In this document: positions 8,076 to 33,496 of the stretch, piece after piece
Position numbering within the stretch: position 1 is the stretch's first letter
Layout of the letters: each line of letters begins with the position of its first letter
IMG/VR virus record: IMGVR_UViG_3300048011_000172
Location: 1-36,788 of that record
DNA: 36,788 nucleotides
From: a virus
Strand: one strand, 5' to 3'
The notes under the pieces: model-generated
Seen by the model: the letters and a program-made list of their open reading frames with translations, nothing else
Told to the model about the DNA's origin: nothing
Database searches by the model: none
Translations under genes and position numbers: made by a program

Positions 8076-8280
8076 GAATTTTATCTACCAGTTGTGTTAA
8101 TAATGTTTTAATATCTGAAACATCTTTCTTTAAATTATTTATCTCTTCTACTTGTTTTTTGAAGGTTTCTTTCCTAAGTTTTTGCGCCCTATAAGCATTA
8201 ATATCAGTATTCACCACAGCAGTAGATTCCGAATCTCTTGCTAATGATGAATGACCTTCTACTTTCCAATATTCAGTCAC
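8068..8280 (-). CDS. Small conserved protein with C-terminal coiled coil, 70 aa
   Basis: I place the start at GTG 8280-8278, which overlaps the TAG stop of the giant upstream gene by one base and lies about 8 nt after an AGGA. A longer reading from ATG 8298 would lie inside the upstream gene and adds no recognisable sequence. The N-terminal part, VTEYWKVEGHSSLARD, then SESTAVVNTDINAY, looks like a short conserved phage motif. Residues about 35-70 (KLRKETFKKQVEEINNLKKD) form a heptad-like coiled coil. It lies between the 10-like protein and the long fiber and overlaps the fiber start by 8 bases. It may be a small connector or assembly factor. Function is unknown. Confidence 0.65.
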   Translation of the reverse strand: MTEYWKVEGHSSLARDSESTAVVNTDINAYRAQKLRKETFKKQVEEINNLKKDVSDIKTLLTQLVDKIHG

Positions 8281-11200
8281 TATGCAAGTCCTAAACATCT
8301 AAGAGCAGATACCATAGGAATTACTGAAGTGTTTGTTCCCTTACCTACAATCTTAACTGAGAAAGCACTGAACTCTGGCAAGTCTTCGACTGACCATTCG
8401 TTTTCTTTAAAGTTTCTAGCATCCGATTCTACTACAGTGTTTGGCGAACCATCACCATTAAAGTATGTCCACCCCAAATCATCAAACGGTGTTGAGTCAT
8501 CATTTTTCAACACCTTATATAGTACTTCAACACCAGTAGTTTCGGGTTTAAATACATCTGCAACAACTCTTAGAGATGTAGCAGGAGTTTTTAGATTGAC
8601 TTTTCTAGTGATATAAACCATTGCGTTGTTATCACCATCGGGGTCTGTTGACGGGATGTAATTAGTAACAGGACTTCCAGGCTCTCCAGGCACGTCTGCA
8701 GAAGTATCAATGTTGTTAATTCTATTCAATATCGCAATAGCACCAATTGTACCCACGTCTATGACTGGTGATATATTAGGTGTTGCTGATTGTAGTTGCA
8801 ACGTACATGTAAAGGATTTCGTACTTGCCATTTCATTTTGTTCATTGATTGGCGATGCAACAACACTTGATGTTCCAAAGTATGCGTTATCATTTAGTGT
8901 AATGAAATCTTGTGTTGAGTTTTTATCATATGCGTTCCCACCTTGGTTGTAACCTTCAGGCGTATCCATAGGTGTTCTAGTTACTGCAGCCAAAACTCTT
9001 GTCAATGGCGGAATAACATTCGGAATCATTGTGTGTATAGAATCGTAATAGTAGTTTCTTGTTGCAAAAGAATTTGCTCCACCACCTACTGTAGATTCCA
9101 AGGCACCATAACTTGCTTTTAAATCATATGATGATAGGTCGGGTACTATTGTGAATGCATCGATTTCTATATTACTAATAGTACTATATCCAAGAGTTTT
9201 ATTCAACTCTTCGAGTGGGAACCCACCTAGAGTATCACCAACCGCATCGATAACTATTGTACAAGACGCTGTTCCACCATCAAAGTTTGTGAATGTTAAA
9301 GTGTTACCAACAGCATGTCCTTGGCCAGGGTTCGTAATAGTAGAACTAGTGATGTTATTATTTACAACTACAATTTCTACAGAACAACCAGTACCACTAC
9401 CAGTTGTACTTGTTTGTTGTACAGTATATGTACCAGCACTTGGTGTTCCCGATACACTAGGTGTTGCAATTCGTAATGCACCATTTAATGCATTACCTGT
9501 TAATCCACTTAGAATAACATTTGAATCTGACTTATACATACCATGTGAGTAGTTATATACCTTCACATAGTTTTTACCAATGTATGTTTCAATCGGGTTC
9601 GATTGTAGTTTTGTAGTTGGTAATGCATCATTTTCAAATACCAATTTTGGTGTTTTTGATTGATTAAATACAGCCCTTCTGATTGTAAACTTGAGGTCAT
9701 CTTCCTGTGTAGCAGTCCATGTTGATGCGTTCTGTGATAAGAACAATGAACCAGCATATGGTTGTCCAGCAATTGTCTGACCTGTTGCAATATCTTTTTC
9801 GCCCATTCTAGATATGAAAGCCTCATACTCATTTGAGTTAGAGTAAACTACGAAACAATACTCAACATCTTGTTGAAGGTATACTGGTGACTCAAAAGTA
9901 AATGATGTCGCCTTGCTTCCATCTTGTGATGTGGCCACAGCAGATGGGTTCAATGTTACCACTGAGAAAGGCAATACTATTTGGCCAGGATAACCATTAA
10001 CCATGTTTCTAATTTCAACAGAAACTGGGATATGTGTATCTTTAGACTGGAAGAATACATCAATTCCAGTTGCAAAGGTACCACCTGATTGTTCTACTAG
10101 GAACGATTGAGCAAGTGGGTCACCCCATCCTCTTTCCATTTCGGGGAATTGAGGTTGTGTAAATCGACCTGTGAAATCTCGCCAACCATCGAACTCTTCC
10201 AAAACTGGTTCTGGCGGTATTATTGGAACAGGTGGAACCAAAACAGGTGGCGGAGTTGTATCTTCCGGCAATGGAATGAAAACAGGCGGTGATTGAATTA
10301 CTGATATAACAGGAACTTCAACCTCCACGATTCTTTCAATAATAACTTCTTCTATTAAAATTTGTGGTGGAAGTTCAATGTAAACTTCTCTAATAGGTGG
10401 TATTTCGGGAATAGGTACTGGTGGTGCAACAGTATCCCAAGGCAAGACATTCGTCCTTTCGCCAGGTTTTGTAATCTGTCTTTCACCAGCTGTTCTTTCA
10501 CGAATAACTCTACCATTTCTTGTAGATGTAATTTCAGTTTGAGTCGATGTTAAATGACCCTGAGCCTGATACATACCACTACCGTGTGAATTAGGTGATG
10601 ATATATTATTGTAACTTGAAGTAACTCTTAATTCTCTTTGACCAGTAGGGAATTTACCGCCAGGCAAAAAGAAGTTCGCCTTCAGTTCACCATTTTTATC
10701 TGTCTTTGGAATTGATGCAAGTGAGACTGAACCATTATGTGAGTATACAGCAGTACTAGGTGCGATGAAACTATCTATTCTTTCGTTATCAAAGAAGAAA
10801 TAATGGAATGTATTTGGTTTTAAGTTTGTACAATGTATCGCAATAGTTCTAGCACGCATGAATGGTATAAGTGTTACACTTACAACTCTGTCATTTCTTG
10901 TTTCTACAAAGTCTTCAACAACACTTGTTGATACACCAGTTCTTGTTTGTGTTTCTACAGTCTCTGTAATCTCTCTTGTTACCTGAAATCCTGAAGTCCA
11001 TCTACCATGTTGTGTTGGGTCTCCATTCCAAGAACCATTTGAAGTTGCTTGTACTTCAGTAGCAACAGTTTCGGGTTTACCCGCCCATGTAGTCTGCCAT
11101 TCGTTCCAAACGGTTCCCATAGCATTTTTATTTTCAGACACAAGTGCATCGAAGTTACCTTCTCTATTAATTCTTACTTCTGGCAATTGGTCTCTGTCTT

Positions 11201-14200
11201 GCCATATATCTGTTTCGGGTGTTAACTTGACATTACCAAAGAAACTGAATACGTGATATGGGTTGACATTGATATGTCTAGAGGACTTATCATTTTGTGC
11301 TAAATTGACATTTGTGTATGGTAAGGTAATTAAATCCCCTGTCTTCTGATAATCTGAAGAAAGAGCAGTGTTTAAAGATATATCAAAGAACTGTGAGAAG
11401 TTCTTAGGTCTCATAGCACCAAGTTCAGTGTCAATAGCAACGTTATAGTCGGGATGGTTAACATCTCCAACTCTGTGTCCTTTAAAGTTATCTACTAAAA
11501 ATCCTGATTTAAATCTATCGAAACCATCGGAATCTAGTATCTGTTTTGTTTGTGTGTCTTTTTCTAATAGAGAAAGAGATGTAATTCTTTCTAAGTTAGT
11601 CACACGGCTATTAATCCTACCGATGTCTTTCATCGTATATCTACGATGGTCGTGTGACCTTACTTTAACATTTTTTAAACTAGCAGTATAAGCAGGAATC
11701 TCTAGTTCGAATAACTCAATAGCATCATCTATACCTTTTGGTTTAGTTGGTGATAGTGAAGGTATCCCTACTGCAGTTTGGAATGTGCCTGATTTGTGTA
11801 GATATACTTTATCGATTCTACCTACATAGAATTTTATGTCACCAGTTACACTTGAGCCTGGAACTGGGGAATCAGTTGTGATTGCATGTGTTTGCGTAAT
11901 GCCATCTCTTGAGTCACCAAAGTTTCTACCTGTATCATAACCAAACGGAGCAAATACAGCACCAGTTGTATTATTTGATAAATCAATTGCGTTGGTTGGA
12001 GTAGATGCATTGTTTATTTTAAAATTAGAAGTTCCAAGAATCTGTCCAGCAACTGGTCTAAAGTCAATACAATCTGAGAGTTCGAATGTTCCATCGGGTT
12101 CTAAACCACCTAAGTCTATTCTATTGGGGGAATATACTGGTATGTCATCATAGTCGATTGACCTATATGATTCAACATCAAAATATTCTCCAGCACCAGC
12201 AGAAAAATAATCGAAACAAATAAGTAGTGGGCCGTTAGGAGAAGGTTCTCCAGTTTTTCTTGTTAGTTTTCCAAGGTCATAGTACCCATCTCTTTGACCA
12301 TTGTCAAAGAAGTATCTACTCTTAATATCTTCTGAACCTTGATGTACGTTTGATATAGTAACAGATGCACCTGATGATGCGCCAACAATTACCTCACTCT
12401 CAACAAATGAACCACTAACCATTCTGTAATGAGATATAGCACCACTACCAGCATAGTATACTAATATTGCACGTGCATTTGATGTCTGTCCAACCAAAGT
12501 TTCGTATTGTGTAAATGTTCCAGTAACTGTACCAAAACTCGCATTCGGCATAACTGGTGCAGTTCCACCTTCGTATATTGCATGAATCTTATGAACGTCA
12601 GCAACACCTAGTGTAATTTCTTTATCATCATATGCAGTTCCATAAAAACCATTAGCACTTCTAGGTTGAGTGACTTTAAGCAATCTTGATTTGTTTAGTG
12701 TTTTGGAACGAGCTTTTGGCGAAGTCAACAATACTGTAGATGTAACTTTAAGAATCGCACCACTATTGTTTGCTAGTGTACATGTTAACTGATTACCAGT
12801 CACATTTGGACTTAGGTTTTCGATGTCTAGTAAATCACCAGCATCGAATGCGTTACTATCTGTAGATGCTTTTACTACTGCGATTGAGAAGTTATCTGTA
12901 TTTCTTGCTTCGAAGGTTGCTTGTGAACCAGCACTAATAGTGAATGCACCACTGTTTATTGTTACTATGTGTTGTCTTCTTACTTTAACATTCTTACCAG
13001 CATGTTCAGCAACCCAATCTCTAGGCCATGCGTAAATAGCTGCAGTTTGGTCTTGTTTATGAATTCTAACTCTACGTCTTGTTACACTACCGTTTGAGAT
13101 TGGAGATACGCCAGAGGTGGCGGTACATTGGGCATTGTTAGCATCTGTAACAGTTTGAATAACTCTTTGGGTACCAGTACCGTCAATGATGATGTCACCT
13201 TCTTTAAGTTCGGTTGCGAATCTTGAACCAAATCCTGTTAGTGCGCCGCCTCCCGATAATGAAATAGAACCCGATAAAGTATTGTCGGCATCTGCAACAG
13301 CATCACCAACGAATGTTTGTAAAGTATCATCTTTTGAAGCTTGTGTAACCCCACGAGTACGGTCTACGTTATAGGTTCTTGTCTCTGTGATTGTTCCTGT
13401 TGCACTTGTCTTACCTTTAGTGGATATAGTATCACCAGTATAGAACCCACCAGTAACATCGTGAATATACACAGTTGTGTTACTTGTGTTGTATGCAACA
13501 ATACCTGTACCAACAATTTGACCTGCTGAGTTTGTAGATACTATTTGGTCACCTTCAGTAAATGTACCAGTAAATGTATTTGCTTTAACTTCAGTATACA
13601 TTTTGATATCAAATAAATATATGTTCCATTGAGAAGCTTGGTTGTATTCGCCACTTGAATCATCGACACCACTATGTAAGTCTATATTTCTAATACGTGC
13701 TTTACCAATATGCTTTCCAGCAAAACTTGGGGAACTAGCATTAACGTTTGTTGAATTCTGTACAGTATCATACAAGTCCATATCACCATATCTTTCTTGA
13801 CTTGCATTTGTGCCTTCATTACCAAATTCTGGCAATCCATGTGCATTTGTGACTCTTAAAATATTACCTAATCTGACTGGTGTATTAGAACCAGCGAGTG
13901 TGACTGTTGACCTCGCTTTTGCAAAGTTTAGAGATGTTGTACCAATTTTATCAATCTCAAAACCTTTGACATACGCTTTACCTGGCGATATTTGCATAAC
14001 AAATCTGTCTGCATCACCACCATATTGTTCAGTATAAAAACCGTTGTTTGTTGTGTTGTTTAAATGTTCTCTAAGACTATGTGTAAATTGATTGACAACA
14101 AAATCACCGTTAGCATCAAATGTTCTTCGTGCTAATGTTTGTTCAATCTGACCATACTGCGGTCTAGTGATTTTACTTTCGATGATACCACCATTAACTT

Positions 14201-15044
14201 TTACAAGTTCAATAAAGTCAGCATCATCTGTTGTGTCTAATTTAAATTTGGAGAGGACAAGTTCCATCTTAAGTCTGTCTGCACCAGCAGCATTCTCGTT
14301 TGATGTACCTTGTGAGTTGTCCAATAGTGTAGTGTCTGTTGCACTATCTATAATTGTTTCTGTTACGTTTAGACCTACTCTATAACTTGGAGCAGCAGAA
14401 TATTTCTCTAGAACAATTTGTTGTTTATCTACTAAACAGAAGAATCCTCTAATAAAAACAATACCTTCTGAAATACTAGCAAGAGATGCCCTACCTATCG
14501 GGTCGTCTGTAGTTGCTTTTATTGTAAACTGATTATTATTACCACCAACAACGTTAATCGTACCATCTTCAGAAATCGATACTTCCTGTAGTACCTCATT
14601 TTGATAGAATACAGGTGAGTTATAAACATCTGTACCCTGTGAATGGAAATGAAGGAATAGTGTTACAGGGTCGTCTGTAGTTTCTGCTGTAGAGTTTGTT
14701 ACCTTTGCAACAACACCTGAACTTTTACCTTGAACATATTTACCATGAAATGCAGTTCTGTACGATTCAACCGATGTTTCGCCCTCAGCATTAGGATTAG
14801 CAGATTTAACCTTCACATAAAAGACATCCATATCAATATCAGATTCCGCACCTGTTACTAATGAACCTTCTTCAAAGATATGAGAACCAAATCTCTCAAT
14901 CTGTCCTTGAAGAATGGATTGGGATTGTGTTAGTTCTCTTGCTTGTAGAGGACGCCCAGCTCGATAAAGTATTTTACTATACTTTTTATCTTCTGAGTAA
15001 TCGTCATAATACGGAGATATATTTAAATCTGTCTTTTCTGGCAT
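8280..15044 (-). CDS. Giant baseplate wedge / fiber-anchor protein, gp10 position (DUF4815-like), 2254 aa
   Basis: The N terminus carries NISPYYDDYSEDKKYSKIL (from about residue 8) and QARELTQSQSILQGQIERFG, the signature of the DUF4815 region of large structural proteins in marine T4-like phages. It follows gp8, where T4 has genes 9 and 10, so a wedge or pin role is inferred. A Pro/Ile/Val/Glu-rich linker lies around residues 1530-1625 (VAPPVPIPEIPPIREVYIEL, then PPPVLVPPVPIIPPEPV). It separates the N-terminal two thirds from a beta-rich C-terminal third beginning WGDPLAQSFLVEQSGG, a stretch I associate with marine phage baseplate proteins. It is more than three times the length of T4 gp10 (602 aa). 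The start follows a weak GAGTGG site downstream of a strong hairpin. Confidence 0.75.
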   Translation of the reverse strand: MPEKTDLNISPYYDDYSEDKKYSKILYRAGRPLQARELTQSQSILQGQIERFGSHIFEEGSLVTGAESDIDMDVFYVKVKSANPNAEGETSVESYRTAFHGKYVQGKSSGVVAKVTNSTAETTDDPVTLFLHFHSQGTDVYNSPVFYQNEVLQEVSISEDGTINVVGGNNNQFTIKATTDDPIGRASLASISEGIVFIRGFFCLVDKQQIVLEKYSAAPSYRVGLNVTETIIDSATDTTLLDNSQGTSNENAAGADRLKMELVLSKFKLDTTDDADFIELVKVNGGIIESKITRPQYGQIEQTLARRTFDANGDFVVNQFTHSLREHLNNTTNNGFYTEQYGGDADRFVMQISPGKAYVKGFEIDKIGTTSLNFAKARSTVTLAGSNTPVRLGNILRVTNAHGLPEFGNEGTNASQERYGDMDLYDTVQNSTNVNASSPSFAGKHIGKARIRNIDLHSGVDDSSGEYNQASQWNIYLFDIKMYTEVKANTFTGTFTEGDQIVSTNSAGQIVGTGIVAYNTSNTTVYIHDVTGGFYTGDTISTKGKTSATGTITETRTYNVDRTRGVTQASKDDTLQTFVGDAVADADNTLSGSISLSGGGALTGFGSRFATELKEGDIIIDGTGTQRVIQTVTDANNAQCTATSGVSPISNGSVTRRRVRIHKQDQTAAIYAWPRDWVAEHAGKNVKVRRQHIVTINSGAFTISAGSQATFEARNTDNFSIAVVKASTDSNAFDAGDLLDIENLSPNVTGNQLTCTLANNSGAILKVTSTVLLTSPKARSKTLNKSRLLKVTQPRSANGFYGTAYDDKEITLGVADVHKIHAIYEGGTAPVMPNASFGTVTGTFTQYETLVGQTSNARAILVYYAGSGAISHYRMVSGSFVESEVIVGASSGASVTISNVHQGSEDIKSRYFFDNGQRDGYYDLGKLTRKTGEPSPNGPLLICFDYFSAGAGEYFDVESYRSIDYDDIPVYSPNRIDLGGLEPDGTFELSDCIDFRPVAGQILGTSNFKINNASTPTNAIDLSNNTTGAVFAPFGYDTGRNFGDSRDGITQTHAITTDSPVPGSSVTGDIKFYVGRIDKVYLHKSGTFQTAVGIPSLSPTKPKGIDDAIELFELEIPAYTASLKNVKVRSHDHRRYTMKDIGRINSRVTNLERITSLSLLEKDTQTKQILDSDGFDRFKSGFLVDNFKGHRVGDVNHPDYNVAIDTELGAMRPKNFSQFFDISLNTALSSDYQKTGDLITLPYTNVNLAQNDKSSRHINVNPYHVFSFFGNVKLTPETDIWQDRDQLPEVRINREGNFDALVSENKNAMGTVWNEWQTTWAGKPETVATEVQATSNGSWNGDPTQHGRWTSGFQVTREITETVETQTRTGVSTSVVEDFVETRNDRVVSVTLIPFMRARTIAIHCTNLKPNTFHYFFFDNERIDSFIAPSTAVYSHNGSVSLASIPKTDKNGELKANFFLPGGKFPTGQRELRVTSSYNNISSPNSHGSGMYQAQGHLTSTQTEITSTRNGRVIRERTAGERQITKPGERTNVLPWDTVAPPVPIPEIPPIREVYIELPPQILIEEVIIERIVEVEVPVISVIQSPPVFIPLPEDTTPPPVLVPPVPIIPPEPVLEEFDGWRDFTGRFTQPQFPEMERGWGDPLAQSFLVEQSGGTFATGIDVFFQSKDTHIPVSVEIRNMVNGYPGQIVLPFSVVTLNPSAVATSQDGSKATSFTFESPVYLQQDVEYCFVVYSNSNEYEAFISRMGEKDIATGQTIAGQPYAGSLFLSQNASTWTATQEDDLKFTIRRAVFNQSKTPKLVFENDALPTTKLQSNPIETYIGKNYVKVYNYSHGMYKSDSNVILSGLTGNALNGALRIATPSVSGTPSAGTYTVQQTSTTGSGTGCSVEIVVVNNNITSSTITNPGQGHAVGNTLTFTNFDGGTASCTIVIDAVGDTLGGFPLEELNKTLGYSTISNIEIDAFTIVPDLSSYDLKASYGALESTVGGGANSFATRNYYYDSIHTMIPNVIPPLTRVLAAVTRTPMDTPEGYNQGGNAYDKNSTQDFITLNDNAYFGTSSVVASPINEQNEMASTKSFTCTLQLQSATPNISPVIDVGTIGAIAILNRINNIDTSADVPGEPGSPVTNYIPSTDPDGDNNAMVYITRKVNLKTPATSLRVVADVFKPETTGVEVLYKVLKNDDSTPFDDLGWTYFNGDGSPNTVVESDARNFKENEWSVEDLPEFSAFSVKIVGKGTNTSVIPMVSALRCLGLA

Positions 15045-27675: not shown

Positions 27676-27700
27676 CCTAGAGTTTCATTATTGTTACATC

Positions 27701-27708
27701 TATTTATG
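27701..27708 (-). promoter_or_regulatory. Late-promoter variant CATAAATA for gene 48
   Basis: This is one base off TATAAATA on the minus strand. It is followed by GATGT and A, the same spacer seen at 28146-28150. It overlaps the start codon of gene 4 on the other strand, and the predicted gene 48 leader is about 29 nt. Confidence 0.4.
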
Positions 27709-28137
27709 TCATATAGCGGACGGTTTAAACCGAAGAATTACAAAAAATATACAGGCGACCCCACAAAGATTGTCTATCGTTCGCTGTGGGAGCGAAGATT
27801 CATGCAATATTGTGATGATAACAACAATATTATTGAATGGGGTAGTGAAGAAATCATCATTCCATACATCTCACCAGTAGATAAAAAGGTTCATAGATAC
27901 TTCCCTGATTTCTATATCAAGTATCGTAACACTAGGGGTGAAGTGTTGCATGAGATTATAGAAGTTAAACCTAAGAAACAAACTAAACCTCCTAAAGAAC
28001 CCAAAAGAAAAACCAAAAGATACATCAACGAGGTTGCAACTTATCTTGTCAATCAAGCAAAGTTCAAAGCAGCAAACGAATACTGTAAAGACCGTAAATA
28101 TAAATTTAGAATATTAACTGAAGACCATCTAACTTAG
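27706..28137 (+). CDS. 4: Head completion protein gp4 (TnsA-like endonuclease fold), 143 aa
   Basis: YRSLWERRFMQYCDDNNNII, then EWGSEEIIIPYISPVDKKVH, RYFPDFYIKY and EIIEVKPKKQTKPP make the classic gp4 (gp50) pattern. The acidic E...D...E-x-K arrangement is that of TnsA/restriction-like endonucleases. In T4 gp4 acts after DNA packaging, before tail joining, and may trim DNA at the portal. I choose ATG 27706 (MSYSGRFKPKNY) rather than TTG 27691, because the conserved sequence begins with MSYSGRF and the length then matches T4 gp4 (150 aa). There is no Shine-Dalgarno sequence. It opens the plus-strand block, separated from gene 48 by 39 bp. Confidence 0.88.
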   Translation: MSYSGRFKPKNYKKYTGDPTKIVYRSLWERRFMQYCDDNNNIIEWGSEEIIIPYISPVDKKVHRYFPDFYIKYRNTRGEVLHEIIEVKPKKQTKPPKEPKRKTKRYINEVATYLVNQAKFKAANEYCKDRKYKFRILTEDHLT

Positions 28138-28830: not shown

Positions 28831-29667
28831 ATGGAAGATAAACCAAGAAATAGGCACGACTCGATAGACACTATCATCGGTGCAATTAAAGCTCCAGCAA
28901 TGGCAAACCAATTTGAGGTTGCGTTTTTTGGCCCTCAAGGGTTGACACTCAATGCAGTTAGATGTAAGACTGCAACTATTCCAAGTAGAAAAATAGAAGT
29001 TACTGAAAAGAACACACAAGGTAAATCTAAATTCCTTCCAACAGGTAAAATTGATGACGGTGGAACTGCAACATTCACATTCTATTGTGACATTGATTTC
29101 TTAGATAGAAGAATCATGCAATTGTGGTTAGACTCAATCTATGGTGGTGACACTGCAGCTCCTGAACAAGGAGAAGGTTCAGACCCAAACACACAACCTA
29201 TCTTTGCATTCTATAAAGACTATATTGGTGAAGTAGAAATTAAACACCTTAGAAAGGATGGGTATAATCCTACCTTTGCTTCCGATGGGCAACAAGGTGC
29301 AAGTCTAATAACAAGATTGCATGATGCATATCCAACATCAATCGATGAACTGGTATTGGATATGGCACAAGGTGAAATGTTAAGTGTAAGTGTACAATTT
29401 GCATACAGATATTTTACTACAGAATATGTGGAGAGTAAAAATCCACAGAAAACTCCTCACCCTGTTTATAATGGTGAAGGGACGACTCCGAACGGACTAA
29501 ATAGTGGTAGGAGTCAAATCGATAACTTGCAAGAGGCCTTAGCAATCGGTTCTAGATTTTCTAGTTCTGCTGGAAGGTTACAGAATAAAGTCTCAGGACT
29601 TACTACTGCAAAATCGAGGATTGATAACAGTTACAAGAATGTGAGAGACCTTTTTGGAACTCAATAA
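28831..29667 (+). CDS. 54: Baseplate tail-tube initiator, gp54-like, 278 aa
   Basis: ANQFEVAFFGPQGLTLNAVR, CKTATIPSRKIEVTEK and DGGTATFTFYCDIDFLDRRI MQLW match the tube-fold start shared by T4 gp19, gp48 and gp54, with a mid-section beta region ending MLSVSVQFAYRYFTTEY. The C-terminal ~70 residues are helical and Ser/Asn-rich. T4 gp54 (320 aa) sits on gp48 and starts tube polymerisation. As gp48 is identified elsewhere and gp19 normally lies near the sheath gene, gp54 is the best assignment. A tube paralogue is the alternative. AGGAAG lies at good spacing before the ATG. Confidence 0.6.
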   Translation: MEDKPRNRHDSIDTIIGAIKAPAMANQFEVAFFGPQGLTLNAVRCKTATIPSRKIEVTEKNTQGKSKFLPTGKIDDGGTATFTFYCDIDFLDRRIMQLWLDSIYGGDTAAPEQGEGSDPNTQPIFAFYKDYIGEVEIKHLRKDGYNPTFASDGQQGASLITRLHDAYPTSIDELVLDMAQGEMLSVSVQFAYRYFTTEYVESKNPQKTPHPVYNGEGTTPNGLNSGRSQIDNLQEALAIGSRFSSSAGRLQNKVSGLTTAKSRIDNSYKNVRDLFGTQ

Positions 29668-29686
29668 AATATAATATGGAGTAATT

Positions 29687-30391
29687 ATGGCATTACCGAT
29701 TCAGTCGGCACCGACTTATAAAACAGTGCTACCTAGTAATGGTCAAGAAGTAGAATACAGACCATTCCTAGTAAAGGAACAAAAAGTTCTAGTCATGGCA
29801 AAAGAAAGCAATGACCAAGAACAAGTTATGCAATCAATCATTAAGATGCTTGATGCATGTACATTTGGTAAATTAAAAATACCAAATATTGCTATGATGG
29901 ATATGGAATGGTTGTTTATTAAAGTCCGTTCTGTTTCAGTTGGTGAAACATCTAAGTTAGTACTTGGTTGTACAGACGAAGGATGTAGAGGAAATGCAAA
30001 AGTAGATTTAAATTTGGAAGACATTGCACCCACAAGTGAAATGCCTGAAGAAGACACAGTCATGTTAACAGATGACTTGGGTGTTAAATTGAAAGTTCCT
30101 AGTGTTAGAGACATCGATGGATTGACAAAGATGGACGAAACACAACAGAGTATGGAGATTGTGAAGAGATGTATCACTTCTGTATTTGATGCCGATGAAG
30201 TGTATCCTATGGAAGATGTATCTCAAAAAGAGTTAGATGAGTTTTTTGATAGTTTGACGTTTAATCAACTAGACAAACTCGGGCAGTTCTTTGATAGTTT
30301 ACCAAAACTAAGACATGAAGTAAGTTACTCGTGCGAAATATGTTCCAAAGAGAACACTAGAGTACTGGAAGGCATCCAAAGTTTTTTTTAA
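29687..30391 (+). CDS. 26: Baseplate hub assembly protein gp26 / tail-chaperone-like, 234 aa
   Basis: EVEYRPFLVKEQKVLVMAKE, NIAMMDMEWLFIKVRSVSVG and EFFDSLTFNQLDKLGQFFDS are the conserved blocks of the T4 gp26 family (T4 208 aa), needed to build the hub. Two Cys pairs, GCTDEGC and CEIC, could form a zinc ribbon. A GGAG site lies before the ATG. The last codons read AGT TTT TTT TAA, so the stop immediately follows a U_UUU_UUU slippery heptamer. A second open frame continues for 62 codons. The two-product arrangement one gene ahead of the tape measure parallels the tail assembly chaperone pair (lambda G/GT type). Confidence 0.82.
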   Translation: MALPIQSAPTYKTVLPSNGQEVEYRPFLVKEQKVLVMAKESNDQEQVMQSIIKMLDACTFGKLKIPNIAMMDMEWLFIKVRSVSVGETSKLVLGCTDEGCRGNAKVDLNLEDIAPTSEMPEEDTVMLTDDLGVKLKVPSVRDIDGLTKMDETQQSMEIVKRCITSVFDADEVYPMEDVSQKELDEFFDSLTFNQLDKLGQFFDSLPKLRHEVSYSCEICSKENTRVLEGIQSFF

Positions 30392-30576
30392 TAGGCCTTT
30401 CCCACGAGTCGGTGTTGAATTTTTATAACACCAACTTTCAGTTAATGCAACACCACAAGTATTCATTGACTGAACTAGATGAGATGATACCATGGGAACG
30501 AGAGGTATACATCAACCTATTACTTCAACACTTAGAAGAGGAAAGGCTAAAGAACGAACAACGAAAGAATAATTAA
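30361..30576 (+). CDS. -1 frame extension of gp26 (gp51-like / chaperone T-domain-like)
   Basis: The frame opens after a stop at 30358-30360 and overlaps the end of gene 26. A -1 slip on the T-run gives LIGLSHESVLNFYNTNFQLM, then QHHKYSLTELDEMIPWEREV and YINLLLQHLEEERLKNEQRK NN, stop 30574-30576. The fusion would be 296 residues. The extension is helical and strongly protein-like (YSLTEL then MIPWERE then YINLL). Its first ATG (30444) has no ribosome binding site and would cut off much of the conserved-looking part, so frameshift expression is more plausible than a separate start. Marine T4-like phages usually have a small gene annotated 51 here; I infer this is its equivalent. Confidence 0.65.
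   Translation, partial: STGRHPKFFLIGLSHESVLNFYNTNFQLMQHHKYSLTELDEMIPWEREVYINLLLQHLEEERLKNEQRKNN
30367..30432 (+). promoter_or_regulatory. Programmed -1 ribosomal frameshift signal
   Basis: There are three elements. An SD-like GGAAGG lies at 30367-30372, 9 nt upstream of the slippery site, comparable to the dnaX stimulator. The zero-frame heptamer T TTT TTT lies at 30382-30388 and is followed directly by TAA. A stem GGTGTT/AACACC lies at 30411-30432, with an alternative partner CAACACC at 30448-30454. The downstream stem is 22 nt away, longer than usual, so it may contribute little. Confidence 0.6.
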
Positions 30577-30621: not shown

Positions 30622-31008
30622 ATGAGTGACGACAAAAAAATTAGTCAAGGTAATGTCGAGATAGATGTTGCTAAGTATACAGAGATGGTCTTGAAGTTAG
30701 ACGAAGCACAGGACAAAATCAAAGAGATGGAGAAGTTATCTAAGGAATTGCAAGTTGCAACAGCAGCAGCAAAACCAAAAGAAAGGTTCTCTGTTGGTGC
30801 ATTGTTCAGAGATGAAAATGACATCAATGAAAAAGCAATCATAGGATTTGCATCATTCTTTTTAATGGTCGTATTCGGAATGGCAGATTTAATTACTGCA
30901 TTTTGGGATATGGACTTAAAAGTATCTGACACTATCTACACTTCATTTGTTGTAGTAACGTTAGGTGCGTTTGGAATATCAGAAGCAGGAAAAGCATTCG
31001 GAAAATAA
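30622..31008 (+). CDS. Membrane protein with two helices (holin-like or hub-associated), 128 aa
   Basis: Residues 20-55 form an amphipathic coiled coil (YTEMVLKLDEAQDKIKEMEK). Then come two hydrophobic helices at about residues 73-92 (AIIGFASFFLMVVFGMADLI) and 104-121 (IYTSFVVVTLGAFGISEA). A GAGG site is present. It is placed between the gp26 unit and the tape measure, 4 nt before the latter. Size and two helices fit a class II-like holin. A membrane-bound hub assembly factor (T4 gp28 was reported membrane-associated) is an alternative. No sequence match to either is evident to me. Confidence 0.6.
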   Translation: MSDDKKISQGNVEIDVAKYTEMVLKLDEAQDKIKEMEKLSKELQVATAAAKPKERFSVGALFRDENDINEKAIIGFASFFLMVVFGMADLITAFWDMDLKVSDTIYTSFVVVTLGAFGISEAGKAFGK

Positions 31009-31012
31009 TTAA

Positions 31013-33496
31013 ATGGCAGATGACAAGGACATAAAGAAGATTAACGATAGAATCACCAGTGTAACGACTGACATAGAAAAGACGTTACAGCAAGGTGGTA
31101 GAGATATCGATAAGGGTATGAAGAGCGTTAACAAACGGTTTGGTGCTTCTATTGAAAAACTTAAAACTACCAACCAAGCGCTATCAAAGATATCACTCGA
31201 TTCTATCAATACTCAAAAGTCCACCTACTCAGGCGCTTTACAGGGAAACAAACTTTTAGGTTTGCAATCTAACCTTGCTAGTGTTATGGAAGGAACTGTC
31301 GATAAGTCATCTGAAGAATTTAAAAAGTTAGAGGAATCCTTTCCTGATGTAGATTTATCGAAGTACGTCAACTCACATAAAAAATTCATGGAAGCATCGG
31401 AAGAGAATGAGAACCTTGCATTCCGTGAACAGATGTTGAATGGTAAGAAAAAAGCACTTCAAGATAGACAAGAACAACAAACAGAAACAATCCTTGGTAA
31501 GACAGAACAATATCAAACACTTCTTGCCGAAACCGAAAAGGCAAGACAAGATGCTGAAAAACTTGCTAAAGAGTTTGCACTAACAGGTGCAGCTCAAACT
31601 GCCAAAGATTTGGGTGAAGCAAACACAAGAAGAGATGAACTCGATAAGAAAGCAGAATCAGTTAAGAAAAGAACTATGGAGTCTTTGGATTTAAGATTTG
31701 CTAAAGAGAAAGAAACTCTAGAATTACAAGGCACTAAATTAGATGAGTTAAAACAACAGAACCAAAAGGTACTTGATAAACAACAAGCAGTTAAAGATGT
31801 AGAAGAAACTTTAATTGGCGACAGAATGAAAGAAATTTCAGAGGATTCGGGTCGTCTTGGTCAATTCTCAGATGGTCTTAAAACACTCACAGGGTTTGAC
31901 CTTGTAGGACTTGCAGATGATGTAGTTAAAAACATTGATGCTGTTGGTAAGGTATTCGGTACAGAAGACTTATTCCAAAACTTGGTAATGAGTACTACAG
32001 GATTCTTTAATAGTATCGGTGATGGGTTGAAGAGTGGATTGGAAGGACTTCAGTCATTCATAAGTTCGCCCGCTGAAGTAATTGGAAAAGGTGTGAGTTC
32101 TATATCCTCCAGTCTTTCCGCTGGATTTGACACTGCAAAAAACGTAATCGGTAAAGGTCTTTCTGGCATACTAGGTGGCGTTAAACAAATGGGGATGTCA
32201 TTAATACTTGCTGGTAAGTCGATGGTCATGGCGGCAACTTCATCAATCAAATCGGGTCTTGTATTCCTAATGGCTGGTGCAAGTGCAATGGGAATGGCAA
32301 TACTAAATGCAGGCAGAGCAATGGCAACAGCTGCTGCTGGAATGCTTTCCGCTGTCATACCATTCATTGTAGCTGGTCTTGCATTTATTGGTGGTCTACT
32401 TATGACTGCTGGTAGTATGTTATTGACTGCACTACCGTTCATTGCAATCGGTGTTGCTATACTTGCAGCTGGTGTGATACTCTACAATGCGTTTATGGCA
32501 ATGTATGAGAATGTTGGATGGTTTAAAGGTATCATAGACACTGGAATATCATACATCATGAACATAGGTCAAGCAATCTTTGATATCTTTGCTGGTATGT
32601 TTGATTTGGTTGTGGGACTATTTACAGGTGACTTTGATAGAGTCATGGAAGGTCTTACTGGTATGTTTGGTGGACTATGGGATTTACTCATGGCACCGTT
32701 TAAAGCAATCGGGGACTTCTTTAAGAATGTATTCGACATAGACATCGGTAAGATGTTAAGAGATTTTGCTGCAAAGATATTACCGAACTGGTTGGTCAAA
32801 AAGATTTTCGGAAAAGAGGCTGATGCACCAATTTCAGATGAACAGGCTGAAGCAGTTGACTCTACTGGTGAAATGTCACCAGCGGCATCAGCGATGGCGA
32901 CTGGATTGGAAGATACTGATACCCAAGAACTCATCAATGAAAGAGAGGCCCAAGAATCCCAAGCATACAATGCTGATATGCAGTTGAGACGAAGAGAAAG
33001 AAATGTTGCTCAAGGTATGAGAGGTAGTATTACCGTAAATGGAGAAACTCTCGAAGGTGATGCGAAAAGAGAATACCTACAGAATAAGGCTGATTCTGGC
33101 AAACTAGACTATATGGATAGAAGTGGTGTCAAGACTGGTTTTGAAGGTATGACATCTGCAGAGATTGAACAGACTAAGATAAGGTCTGAACAACAAGTAA
33201 CAGACATTCAAGGTACCCTAGACGAAAGAAAAGACTATGCTAAGAGTAATATGGTAGCGACTGGTGAAGAAGACTTCTTTGGTGATATGGAATATGAAGA
33301 GACTGGTGACCGAGTTAAGACTGCTCGAGAAATGGAATTGGAATCAAAGACTGAATCAGAAAAGGCGCCAATCAATACTGCAGTAACACAACAGAATAAC
33401 AATCAAACTAATGTTACTAATAATGCAATATCTAGTATGCCTGTTGTTAATGATAATGATTCGTCTGCGAAATTAGGATACGCTGTTGCGTTCTAA
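31013..33496 (+). CDS. Tape measure protein, gp29 equivalent, 827 aa
   Basis: The N-terminal ~280 residues are charged, Gln/Lys/Glu-rich coiled coil (RQEQQTETILGKTEQYQTLL, EKARQDAEKLAKEF). A hydrophobic region at about residues 390-505 has several membrane-like segments rich in Ala/Gly/Met (AGLAFIGGLLMTAGSMLLTA, LPFIAIGVAILAAGVILYNA). The C-terminal part is again polar and ends with an Asn/Gln/Thr stretch (AVTQQNNNQTNVTNNAISSM). This coiled coil-hydrophobic-polar pattern and the position after the chaperone-like unit define a tape measure. It sets tail length and is ejected with the DNA. T4 gp29 is 590 aa. The last 24 bp overlap a convergent small gene. Confidence 0.75.
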   Translation: MADDKDIKKINDRITSVTTDIEKTLQQGGRDIDKGMKSVNKRFGASIEKLKTTNQALSKISLDSINTQKSTYSGALQGNKLLGLQSNLASVMEGTVDKSSEEFKKLEESFPDVDLSKYVNSHKKFMEASEENENLAFREQMLNGKKKALQDRQEQQTETILGKTEQYQTLLAETEKARQDAEKLAKEFALTGAAQTAKDLGEANTRRDELDKKAESVKKRTMESLDLRFAKEKETLELQGTKLDELKQQNQKVLDKQQAVKDVEETLIGDRMKEISEDSGRLGQFSDGLKTLTGFDLVGLADDVVKNIDAVGKVFGTEDLFQNLVMSTTGFFNSIGDGLKSGLEGLQSFISSPAEVIGKGVSSISSSLSAGFDTAKNVIGKGLSGILGGVKQMGMSLILAGKSMVMAATSSIKSGLVFLMAGASAMGMAILNAGRAMATAAAGMLSAVIPFIVAGLAFIGGLLMTAGSMLLTALPFIAIGVAILAAGVILYNAFMAMYENVGWFKGIIDTGISYIMNIGQAIFDIFAGMFDLVVGLFTGDFDRVMEGLTGMFGGLWDLLMAPFKAIGDFFKNVFDIDIGKMLRDFAAKILPNWLVKKIFGKEADAPISDEQAEAVDSTGEMSPAASAMATGLEDTDTQELINEREAQESQAYNADMQLRRRERNVAQGMRGSITVNGETLEGDAKREYLQNKADSGKLDYMDRSGVKTGFEGMTSAEIEQTKIRSEQQVTDIQGTLDERKDYAKSNMVATGEEDFFGDMEYEETGDRVKTAREMELESKTESEKAPINTAVTQQNNNQTNVTNNAISSMPVVNDNDSSAKLGYAVAF

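Follow-up and report, generated by a model that had tools for sequence, protein, structure and literature searches.

Gene 26 of a marine T4-like phage and the small gp51-like frame that follows it very probably (probability about 0.9, judged from comparative sequence analysis) form a single recoded gene, which would yield a short and a long tail assembly chaperone through a −1 slip, whereas T4 and its close kin have two paralogues instead. A chaperone pair made by frameshifting is known in outline for T4-like phages (Vladimirov, Gautam and Davidson 2022, Virology 566:9-15, credited in the relevant passages of PMC10885494 and PMC12846349 with identifying the tail assembly chaperones of this group), and the present case is therefore a further instance of a published arrangement; the addition made here is a quantified three-part signal, for which we do not claim priority over print. 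The DNA analyzed, hereafter the window, is a viral stretch of 36,788 nt (IMG/VR record IMGVR_UViG_3300048011_000172, positions 1–36,788), in which the following features bear on the question.

28831–29667, + strand: tail tube-like protein, upstream of gene 26 (phrog_45, E 8.1e-27)
29687–30391, + strand: gene 26 homologue, unshifted short product (TAC-N or gpG-like), 234 aa (Pfam T4_baseplate, PF12322, E 3.8e-55; phrog_150, E 4.3e-58; AlphaFold mean pLDDT 93.9)
30367–30372, + strand: GGAAGG, internal Shine-Dalgarno (SD)-like motif, a weak form of the family's GAGGG/GGAGG (from sequence, and from apparent family-wide selection for GAGGG here)
30382–30388, + strand: slippery heptamer T TTT TTT within the 8-T run 30382–30389 (from sequence, and from the in-phase T TTT TTN of 183 of 186 clusters)
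30389–30391, + strand: zero-frame stop TAA of gene 26 (from sequence)
30388–30576, + strand: −1 frame tail, 62 codons plus stop TAA at 30574–30576 (TAC-C or gpT-like; gp51 homologue by phrog_634 and phrog_150)
29687–30388 joined to 30388–30573, + strand: predicted shifted product (TAC-NC or gpGT-like), 234 + 62 = 296 aa (T4 gp51 aligns to residues 24–279)
30406–30437, + strand: candidate downstream RNA hairpin, arms 30406–30417 and 30426–30437, 17 nt past the heptamer (MFE −10.6; recoding test)
30622–31008, + strand: small 128-codon gene that separates the tail frame from the tape-measure candidate (ORF call and profile searches)
31013–33496, + strand: tape-measure candidate, 827 aa (position and size; phrog_4200 only at E 0.057)

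The core of a preliminary description of this DNA, made from its letters alone, is borne out: the 3′ end of gene 26 reads AGT TTT TTT TAA with the heptamer abutting the stop (30382–30391), and after a slip the −1 frame stays open for 62 codons, giving the claimed fusion length, such that a short frame and a −1 extended frame are both present in one gene. The SD-like GGAAGG that had been reported 9 nt upstream is indeed there, with a gap of 9 nt to the heptamer as read from the sequence, but it is weak next to the motifs of many relatives. Searched with six further upstream −1 codons included in the query, the tail matched phrog_634, the gp51 family (E 3.8e-25), and positions 230–279 of phrog_150, the gp26 family (E 1.2e-6). 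Its in-frame starts within the first 30 codons are GTG at 30412, TTG at 30415, ATG at 30445 and TTG at 30466, and none of these four is preceded by an SD-like 5-mer, in agreement with the earlier view that this frame lacks its own ribosome binding site; the best candidate is a bare GAG before the GTG, to be compared with GGAG for gp26 and GAGGA for the gene at 30622.

The unit is flanked upstream by the tail tube-like gene and downstream, after one small gene, by the 827-codon gene, a tape-measure candidate by virtue of position and size. It had been described as lying one gene ahead of the tape measure, a placement that we amend in that the 128-codon gene intervenes and the tape measure itself is a candidate identified by its position. 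The annotated order 26, 51, small gene, tape measure is also found in Caulobacter phage Cr30 and Rhizobium phage RHph_I1_18, and small genes are likewise found at this position in phiM19, Cr30, RHph_I1_18, Mosig and Melnitz; the small gene of the window has a weak VIT1-type match (E 0.0016) that falls below the cut-off. Contigs of 120.7 and 96 kb, possibly incomplete, that are almost identical to the window each gave a single gp26 match and a single tail match, without a further copy of either. Elsewhere in the window, the head completion protein at 27691–28137 (gp4-like, phrog_218) has a TnsA-like endonuclease domain match (PF08722, E 1.1e-23), and the − strand carries a 2254-codon open frame at 8280–15044, near which other genes on that strand have matches to families of baseplate wedge, hub-lysozyme and tail fibre proteins.

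Relatives were gathered by similarity to gp26 and to the tails of the window, S-PM2, KVP40, pf16 and Cr30, two of these searches supplying the best 80 of at least 600 matches and one the best 80 of 164, and 21 named phage regions were added, for a total of 281 loci with the window, of which 280 hold both parts. Since loci were found by gp26 or tail similarity, phages that have lost the tail are poorly sampled. Single-linkage clustering at 85% nucleotide identity reduced the 280 loci to 186 clusters, thereby removing at least 13 loci that were the same contig or phage twice (for example L076/L120 and L108/L196). The locus L007, which is without a tail, was dropped; the window (L001), T4 and RB43 were not counted; three clusters without the two slip codons were left out of the codon counts (183 clusters), and one further locus (L114) was left out of the hairpin tests (182 clusters). 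All P-values take clusters as independent and are uncorrected for relatedness.

Relative to gp26, the tail occupies the −1 frame at 279 of 280 loci, or 185 of 186 clusters; the named phages show this relation in 20 of 21 cases, and 18 of the 21 have the heptamer. The retention of T-run and overlap by related phages, which the preliminary description had proposed as a check, is thus very nearly complete. The sole frame exception is S-SCSM1 (L114, at about 1479–1520), in which the heptamer is present and the tail is in +1, apparently after an insertion of about 11 nt (aligned by eye to L228); the locus looks disrupted, and a sequencing error, loss of the frameshift or a further recoding event could each account for it. 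An in-frame fusion had been suspected for ACG-2014e and S-H9-1, where one annotated gene lies under the tail match. For ACG-2014e it was rejected, as this phage has the −1 arrangement, and none of the 280 loci, to which S-H9-1 does not belong, has the tail in the same frame as gp26. In the public records of ACG-2014e, Vi01, nACB2 and ZPAH1 (L094, L111, L112 and L113), no gene is annotated over the conserved −1 tail.

An in-phase heptamer kept across divergent relatives is a canonical feature of −1 frameshift sites, and here T TTT TTN stands inside the overlap, among the final 11 gp26 codons, in 183 of 186 clusters (TTTTTTC in 116, TTTTTTT in 56 and TTTTTTA in 11), compared with 5 of 438 other ORF ends of at least 150 codons on both strands of the same loci. 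In every one of the 183 clusters a T closes the codon preceding the two slip codons, of which the first is TTT, while TTT makes up 1462 of the 2002 other gp26 Phe codons. The T-run is 6 nt long in 127 of these clusters, 7 nt in 21 and 8 nt in 35. The three clusters without T TTT TTN (Vibrio phages K475 and D533 and Salmonella phage Vi01; L109, L110 and L111) still have the tail in −1, and their site, at the gp26 stop, reads CTTTTTG, CTTTTCA or ATTTTCA, which is perhaps a different, weaker slip motif. Vi01 belongs to the Ackermannviridae; the two Vibrio phages are unclassified.

An SD-like element precedes the heptamer in most of the family. At 93 of 182 sites GGAGG or GAGGG stands 9 or 10 nt ahead of the heptamer, compared with 151 of 36528 equal windows from the rest of gp26; when motifs of four bases are included, 153 of 183 clusters have an SD-like sequence, and 30 have no such motif of at least 4 bases at the site. 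A conserved Glu-Gly pair partly explains the fixed spacing, but the choice of GAG over GAA is independent of that: where codon −5 is a Glu followed by Gly, 94 of 115 clusters use GAG, as do 1244 of 4301 Glu codons in the rest of gp26 (p 1e-31 for the difference, clusters as independent). These counts argue that the GAGGG/GGAGG motif is under nucleotide-level selection in much of the family. Where the tail has an in-frame start within 30 codons, the first such start lies 16–94 nt from the SD-like place (at least 70 nt in 57 clusters), and at 16 nt or more it is too far away for this element to serve tail initiation.

That last measurement bears on a first alternative, in which gene 26 and the tail are two separate genes and the gp51-like protein is made from an internal GTG, TTG or ATG by re-initiation after the gp26 stop, without any fusion. 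Public annotation takes this form, with no joined CDS over gene 26 and the tail in any of the 21 named regions, and an in-frame ATG, GTG or TTG does occur within 30 codons in 180 of 183 clusters, window included. Yet in 60 of the 183 clusters (the window not among them) all three codons are absent from the first 18 post-slip codons, and in these 60 the stretch still evolves as −1 coding sequence, with a mean pairwise divergence of 0.316, 0.250 and 0.564 at codon positions 1, 2 and 3. Since codon periodicity is kept there without an early start, the stretch evolves as protein that, with standard starts, is reachable only from gene 26; conservation of the new frame as protein right up to the slip site is itself canonical for −1 frameshifting. 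A strong SD sequence is not universal among phage genes, and the tape-measure candidate at 31013 also has no clear one; all the same, one of seven SD-like 5-mers precedes an in-frame start in the first 22 tail codons in only 7 of 183 clusters, so that relatives with a good start for the second frame, which had been named beforehand as evidence that would count against recoding, turn out to be rare. Separate genes would also have no need for the T TTT TTN that nearly all clusters keep, and we consider this alternative very improbable. With a single recoded gene as the preferred reading, the lack of a joined product in the 21 named regions indicates that those records are probably mis-annotated here.

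Downstream of the heptamer, the 48 nt beginning 2 nt past it were folded and compared with synonymous recodings that use each locus's own codon usage. Across 182 clusters the mean was −8.94 kcal/mol versus −3.67 kcal/mol for the recodings, and folding reached z ≤ −2 in 107 clusters, compared with 17 and 12 of 182 for two control windows; in the remaining 75 of 182 exceptional downstream structure was absent. Column-wise synonymous permutation at the site gave −10.17 versus −6.55 (sd 0.21), while the difference was 0.2–1.0 in non-overlapping windows, which may reflect base-composition differences among loci. A single family-wide hairpin was sought and rejected, as RNAalifold, applied to ungapped columns from the full set of 182 clusters, returned no structure; the stem of 7 bp that had first been considered was dropped too, with at least 6 Watson-Crick pairs in only 9 of 182 clusters, 7 of those among the 11 TTTTTTA clusters. 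The hairpin register instead differs by lineage, and per-lineage registers fit. In a register-40 class of 24 sequences chosen for forming this hairpin, 89.6% of cells are paired versus 30–40% when the register is slid, and of the 12 pairs just one shows changes on both sides (9 cells: U-A 14, A-U 6, G-C 3, unpaired 1). These comparisons indicate that downstream RNA structure, like the SD-like motif, is under nucleotide-level selection in much of the family.

The hairpin of the window itself is less distinctive. Among 5000 synonymous recodings 34 fold as well as its MFE, and its z is only −0.91 relative to dinucleotide shuffles, which is not unusual; pairing in its register is 67.5% versus 34–60% when slid (14 sequences), and 53.7% versus 38–57% (31 sequences). 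The stimulatory elements, SD-like motif and structure, are therefore found in the family and are weak in the window. Heptamer type is also related to both elements: TTTTTTT clusters have weaker downstream structure than TTTTTTC/A clusters (p 6e-6, clusters as independent) and less often a strong SD-like motif (19 of 56 versus 74 of 126; p 0.002, clusters as independent). The two elements go together weakly and show no trade-off (rho −0.16, p 0.03, clusters as independent). It looks as if T-run length and stimulators were tuned to one another.

The T-run could also act at the level of transcription, with polymerase rather than ribosomal slippage producing a fused message, and the 8 Ts of the window, shared with 35 of 183 clusters and followed by the 21 with 7 Ts, are what such an explanation would call for. 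A 6-T run is generally too short for efficient polymerase slippage, however, and 127 of the 183 clusters have only 6 Ts, which makes this explanation very unlikely; the strict T TTT TTN phase, the SD-like motif and the downstream structure are, moreover, ribosomal features. Chance or an assembly artefact, whereby a homopolymer length error splits a true in-frame fusion, has a negligible probability, for although homopolymers are error-prone and the isolate S-SCSM1 looks disrupted, the −1 relation recurs across many assemblies, being shown by 185 of 186 clusters and by 20 of 21 named isolates or records, in most cases on a run of 6 Ts, and no same-frame locus exists among the 280; these results exclude the reading.

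Comparison with T4 connects the recoded gene to a known protein pair. T4 gp51 (249 aa) aligns to residues 24–279 of the shifted product (pairwise E 6.5e-10), while T4 gp26 aligns to the gp26 part only (E 3e-14). In HHalign comparisons the gp26 profile matched the N-terminal part of T4-type gp51 (pairwise E 5.4e-12) and T4-type gp26 (E 2.3e-20), and the tail profile matched the C-terminal part of T4-type gp51 (pairwise E 2.7e-10) with no match to T4-type gp26 (E 0.3). Homology to the gp26 domain and, in the −1 frame, to the gp51 C-terminal domain thus places the unit in the T4 gp26/gp51 family, with gp26 corresponding to the short product and gp51 to the whole shifted product. The difference is that T4 has two divergent genes, with gene 26 devoid of a slippery run. 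T4-type gp51 and gp26 are paralogues of one another (E 2.4e-20), and no in-phase T TTT TT was found in gene 26 of any of six phages with separate genes (T4, Aeromonas 31, KARL-1, phiP4-3, Roth67 and RB43). Two Phe codons near the end of T4 gene 26 are TTC TTT, and T4 gene 51 has one in-phase TTTTTT, near codon 26 and far from the junction. From the paralogy and the missing run in separate genes 26, it follows that the T4 lineage carries the short and long forms as paralogues. The abstract of the 2022 paper by Vladimirov and colleagues reportedly names T4 genes 26 and 51 as well as frameshifting in other T4-like groups. In the passages concerned of PMC3004832, T4 gp26 and gp51 are hub assembly chaperones.

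The predicted fold of gp26 is consistent with a chaperone role. Among 996 chains re-aligned to the high-confidence model, the top structural neighbour was the HK97 tail assembly chaperone 2ob9 (Z 7.7, rmsd 4.1, 83 residues, model residues 1–85), followed by 3fgx (Z 7.5) and then by a score of 4.7. Best scores of Z 7–8 are usual even without a true relative, according to the structure tool's own note, and given a Z under 8 and a Foldseek E of 3–4 for 2ob9, the match is support and not proof. The gp26 N-terminal domain thus moderately resembles the HK97 chaperone in the model, and gp26 differs from it in extending 150 residues further. The T4-type gp51 model (pLDDT 82.9, lower at the C-terminus) has terminal helices that correspond to the tail, and its match to 2ob9 is weak (rank 4, Z 3.7). 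In BFVD, the top-ranking matches to the gp26 model are named after the baseplate hub (E 3.7e-21 at rank 1), and among the 50 matches listed many are nameless. Sequence searches against solved structures gave no persuasive match for gp26, for which an RNA triphosphatase scored best (E 0.067), and nothing for T4 gp51.

The homology between T4 gp51 and the fusion along its full length, the T4 gp26/gp51 paralogy and the moderate HK97 match together point to a chaperone pair of the lambda G/GT type, and lend support to the earlier suggestion that this unit is the T4-lineage version of that pair. As in lambda, a low-frequency −1 slip near the end of the chaperone gene would give short and long products acting on the tape measure; lambda gpG and gpGT bind the tape measure, with the T part contacting the tube protein, and are absent from mature virions, according to the sections of PMC5009743 that treat them, in which this 2016 paper still excepted T4 from G–T frameshifting. 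The differences are that gp26 and the tail match T4-type Pfam and PHROG families, the likeness being drawn here without direct protein comparison, and that a 128-codon gene precedes the tape-measure candidate. The lambda slip site is G GGA AAG, compared with T TTT TTN here. Escherichia coli dnaX likewise combines an internal upstream SD and a downstream stem-loop at a slippery site (as outlined in parts of PMC5600365 and PMC7282821). Our family differs from dnaX in its T-run and in stimulators that vary between lineages. The dnaX slip site is A-rich. With regard to the T4-like chaperones of Vladimirov and colleagues, the passages that cite them agree with our data on a short TAC-N and a long TAC-NC, on poly-T sites as known frameshift signals in TAC-N genes (PMC12846349), and on some phages that have one short and one fused long gene with no frameshifting (PMC10885494). 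A possible difference is the SD-like motif and the lineage-specific hairpins, which may or may not be part of that work: no description of either at this site was found in the literature searched, to which the 2022 paper does not belong, and absence from print is accordingly not claimed.

From these conserved elements we infer slippage itself and a low rate for it. Most ribosomes would stop at 30389 and release the 234-aa short chaperone, while a minority would slip back one base on T TTT TTT and produce the 296-aa chaperone with a helical C-terminal extension, the slip being favoured because contact between the rRNA and an upstream element and, in many lineages, a hairpin past the slip site would slow the ribosome. 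By analogy with lambda gpG and gpGT, both chaperones may bind the tape measure, and the C-terminal extension may recruit tube or hub subunits and so start tube or hub assembly. In T4 and its close kin the slip would have been replaced by the paralogous genes 26, for the short form, and 51, for the long form as an in-frame fusion. A broader proposition, on which we see the chances as evenly balanced, is that throughout the T4-like phages a dnaX-like signal of three parts (internal SD, T TTT TTN and hairpin) governs the chaperone frameshift, that its hairpin register is rebuilt per lineage and that its two stimulators are both weaker where the T-run is longer, so that selection would hold the short-to-long ratio and not any one sequence, the T4 lineage having then escaped by gene duplication.

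The recoded gene offers an explanation for the gp51 proteins of cyanophages and marine vibriophages, which look like 20%-length remnants in the account of PMC3037559; the short cyanophage gp51 is noted there with no explanation in the passages concerned, and the word frameshift is absent from the text of the paper. The missing first 200 residues would be gene 26, joined to the short frame by slippage. If the relation between T-run length and stimulators is true, these phages would also constitute a natural experiment in the maintenance of a frameshift ratio.
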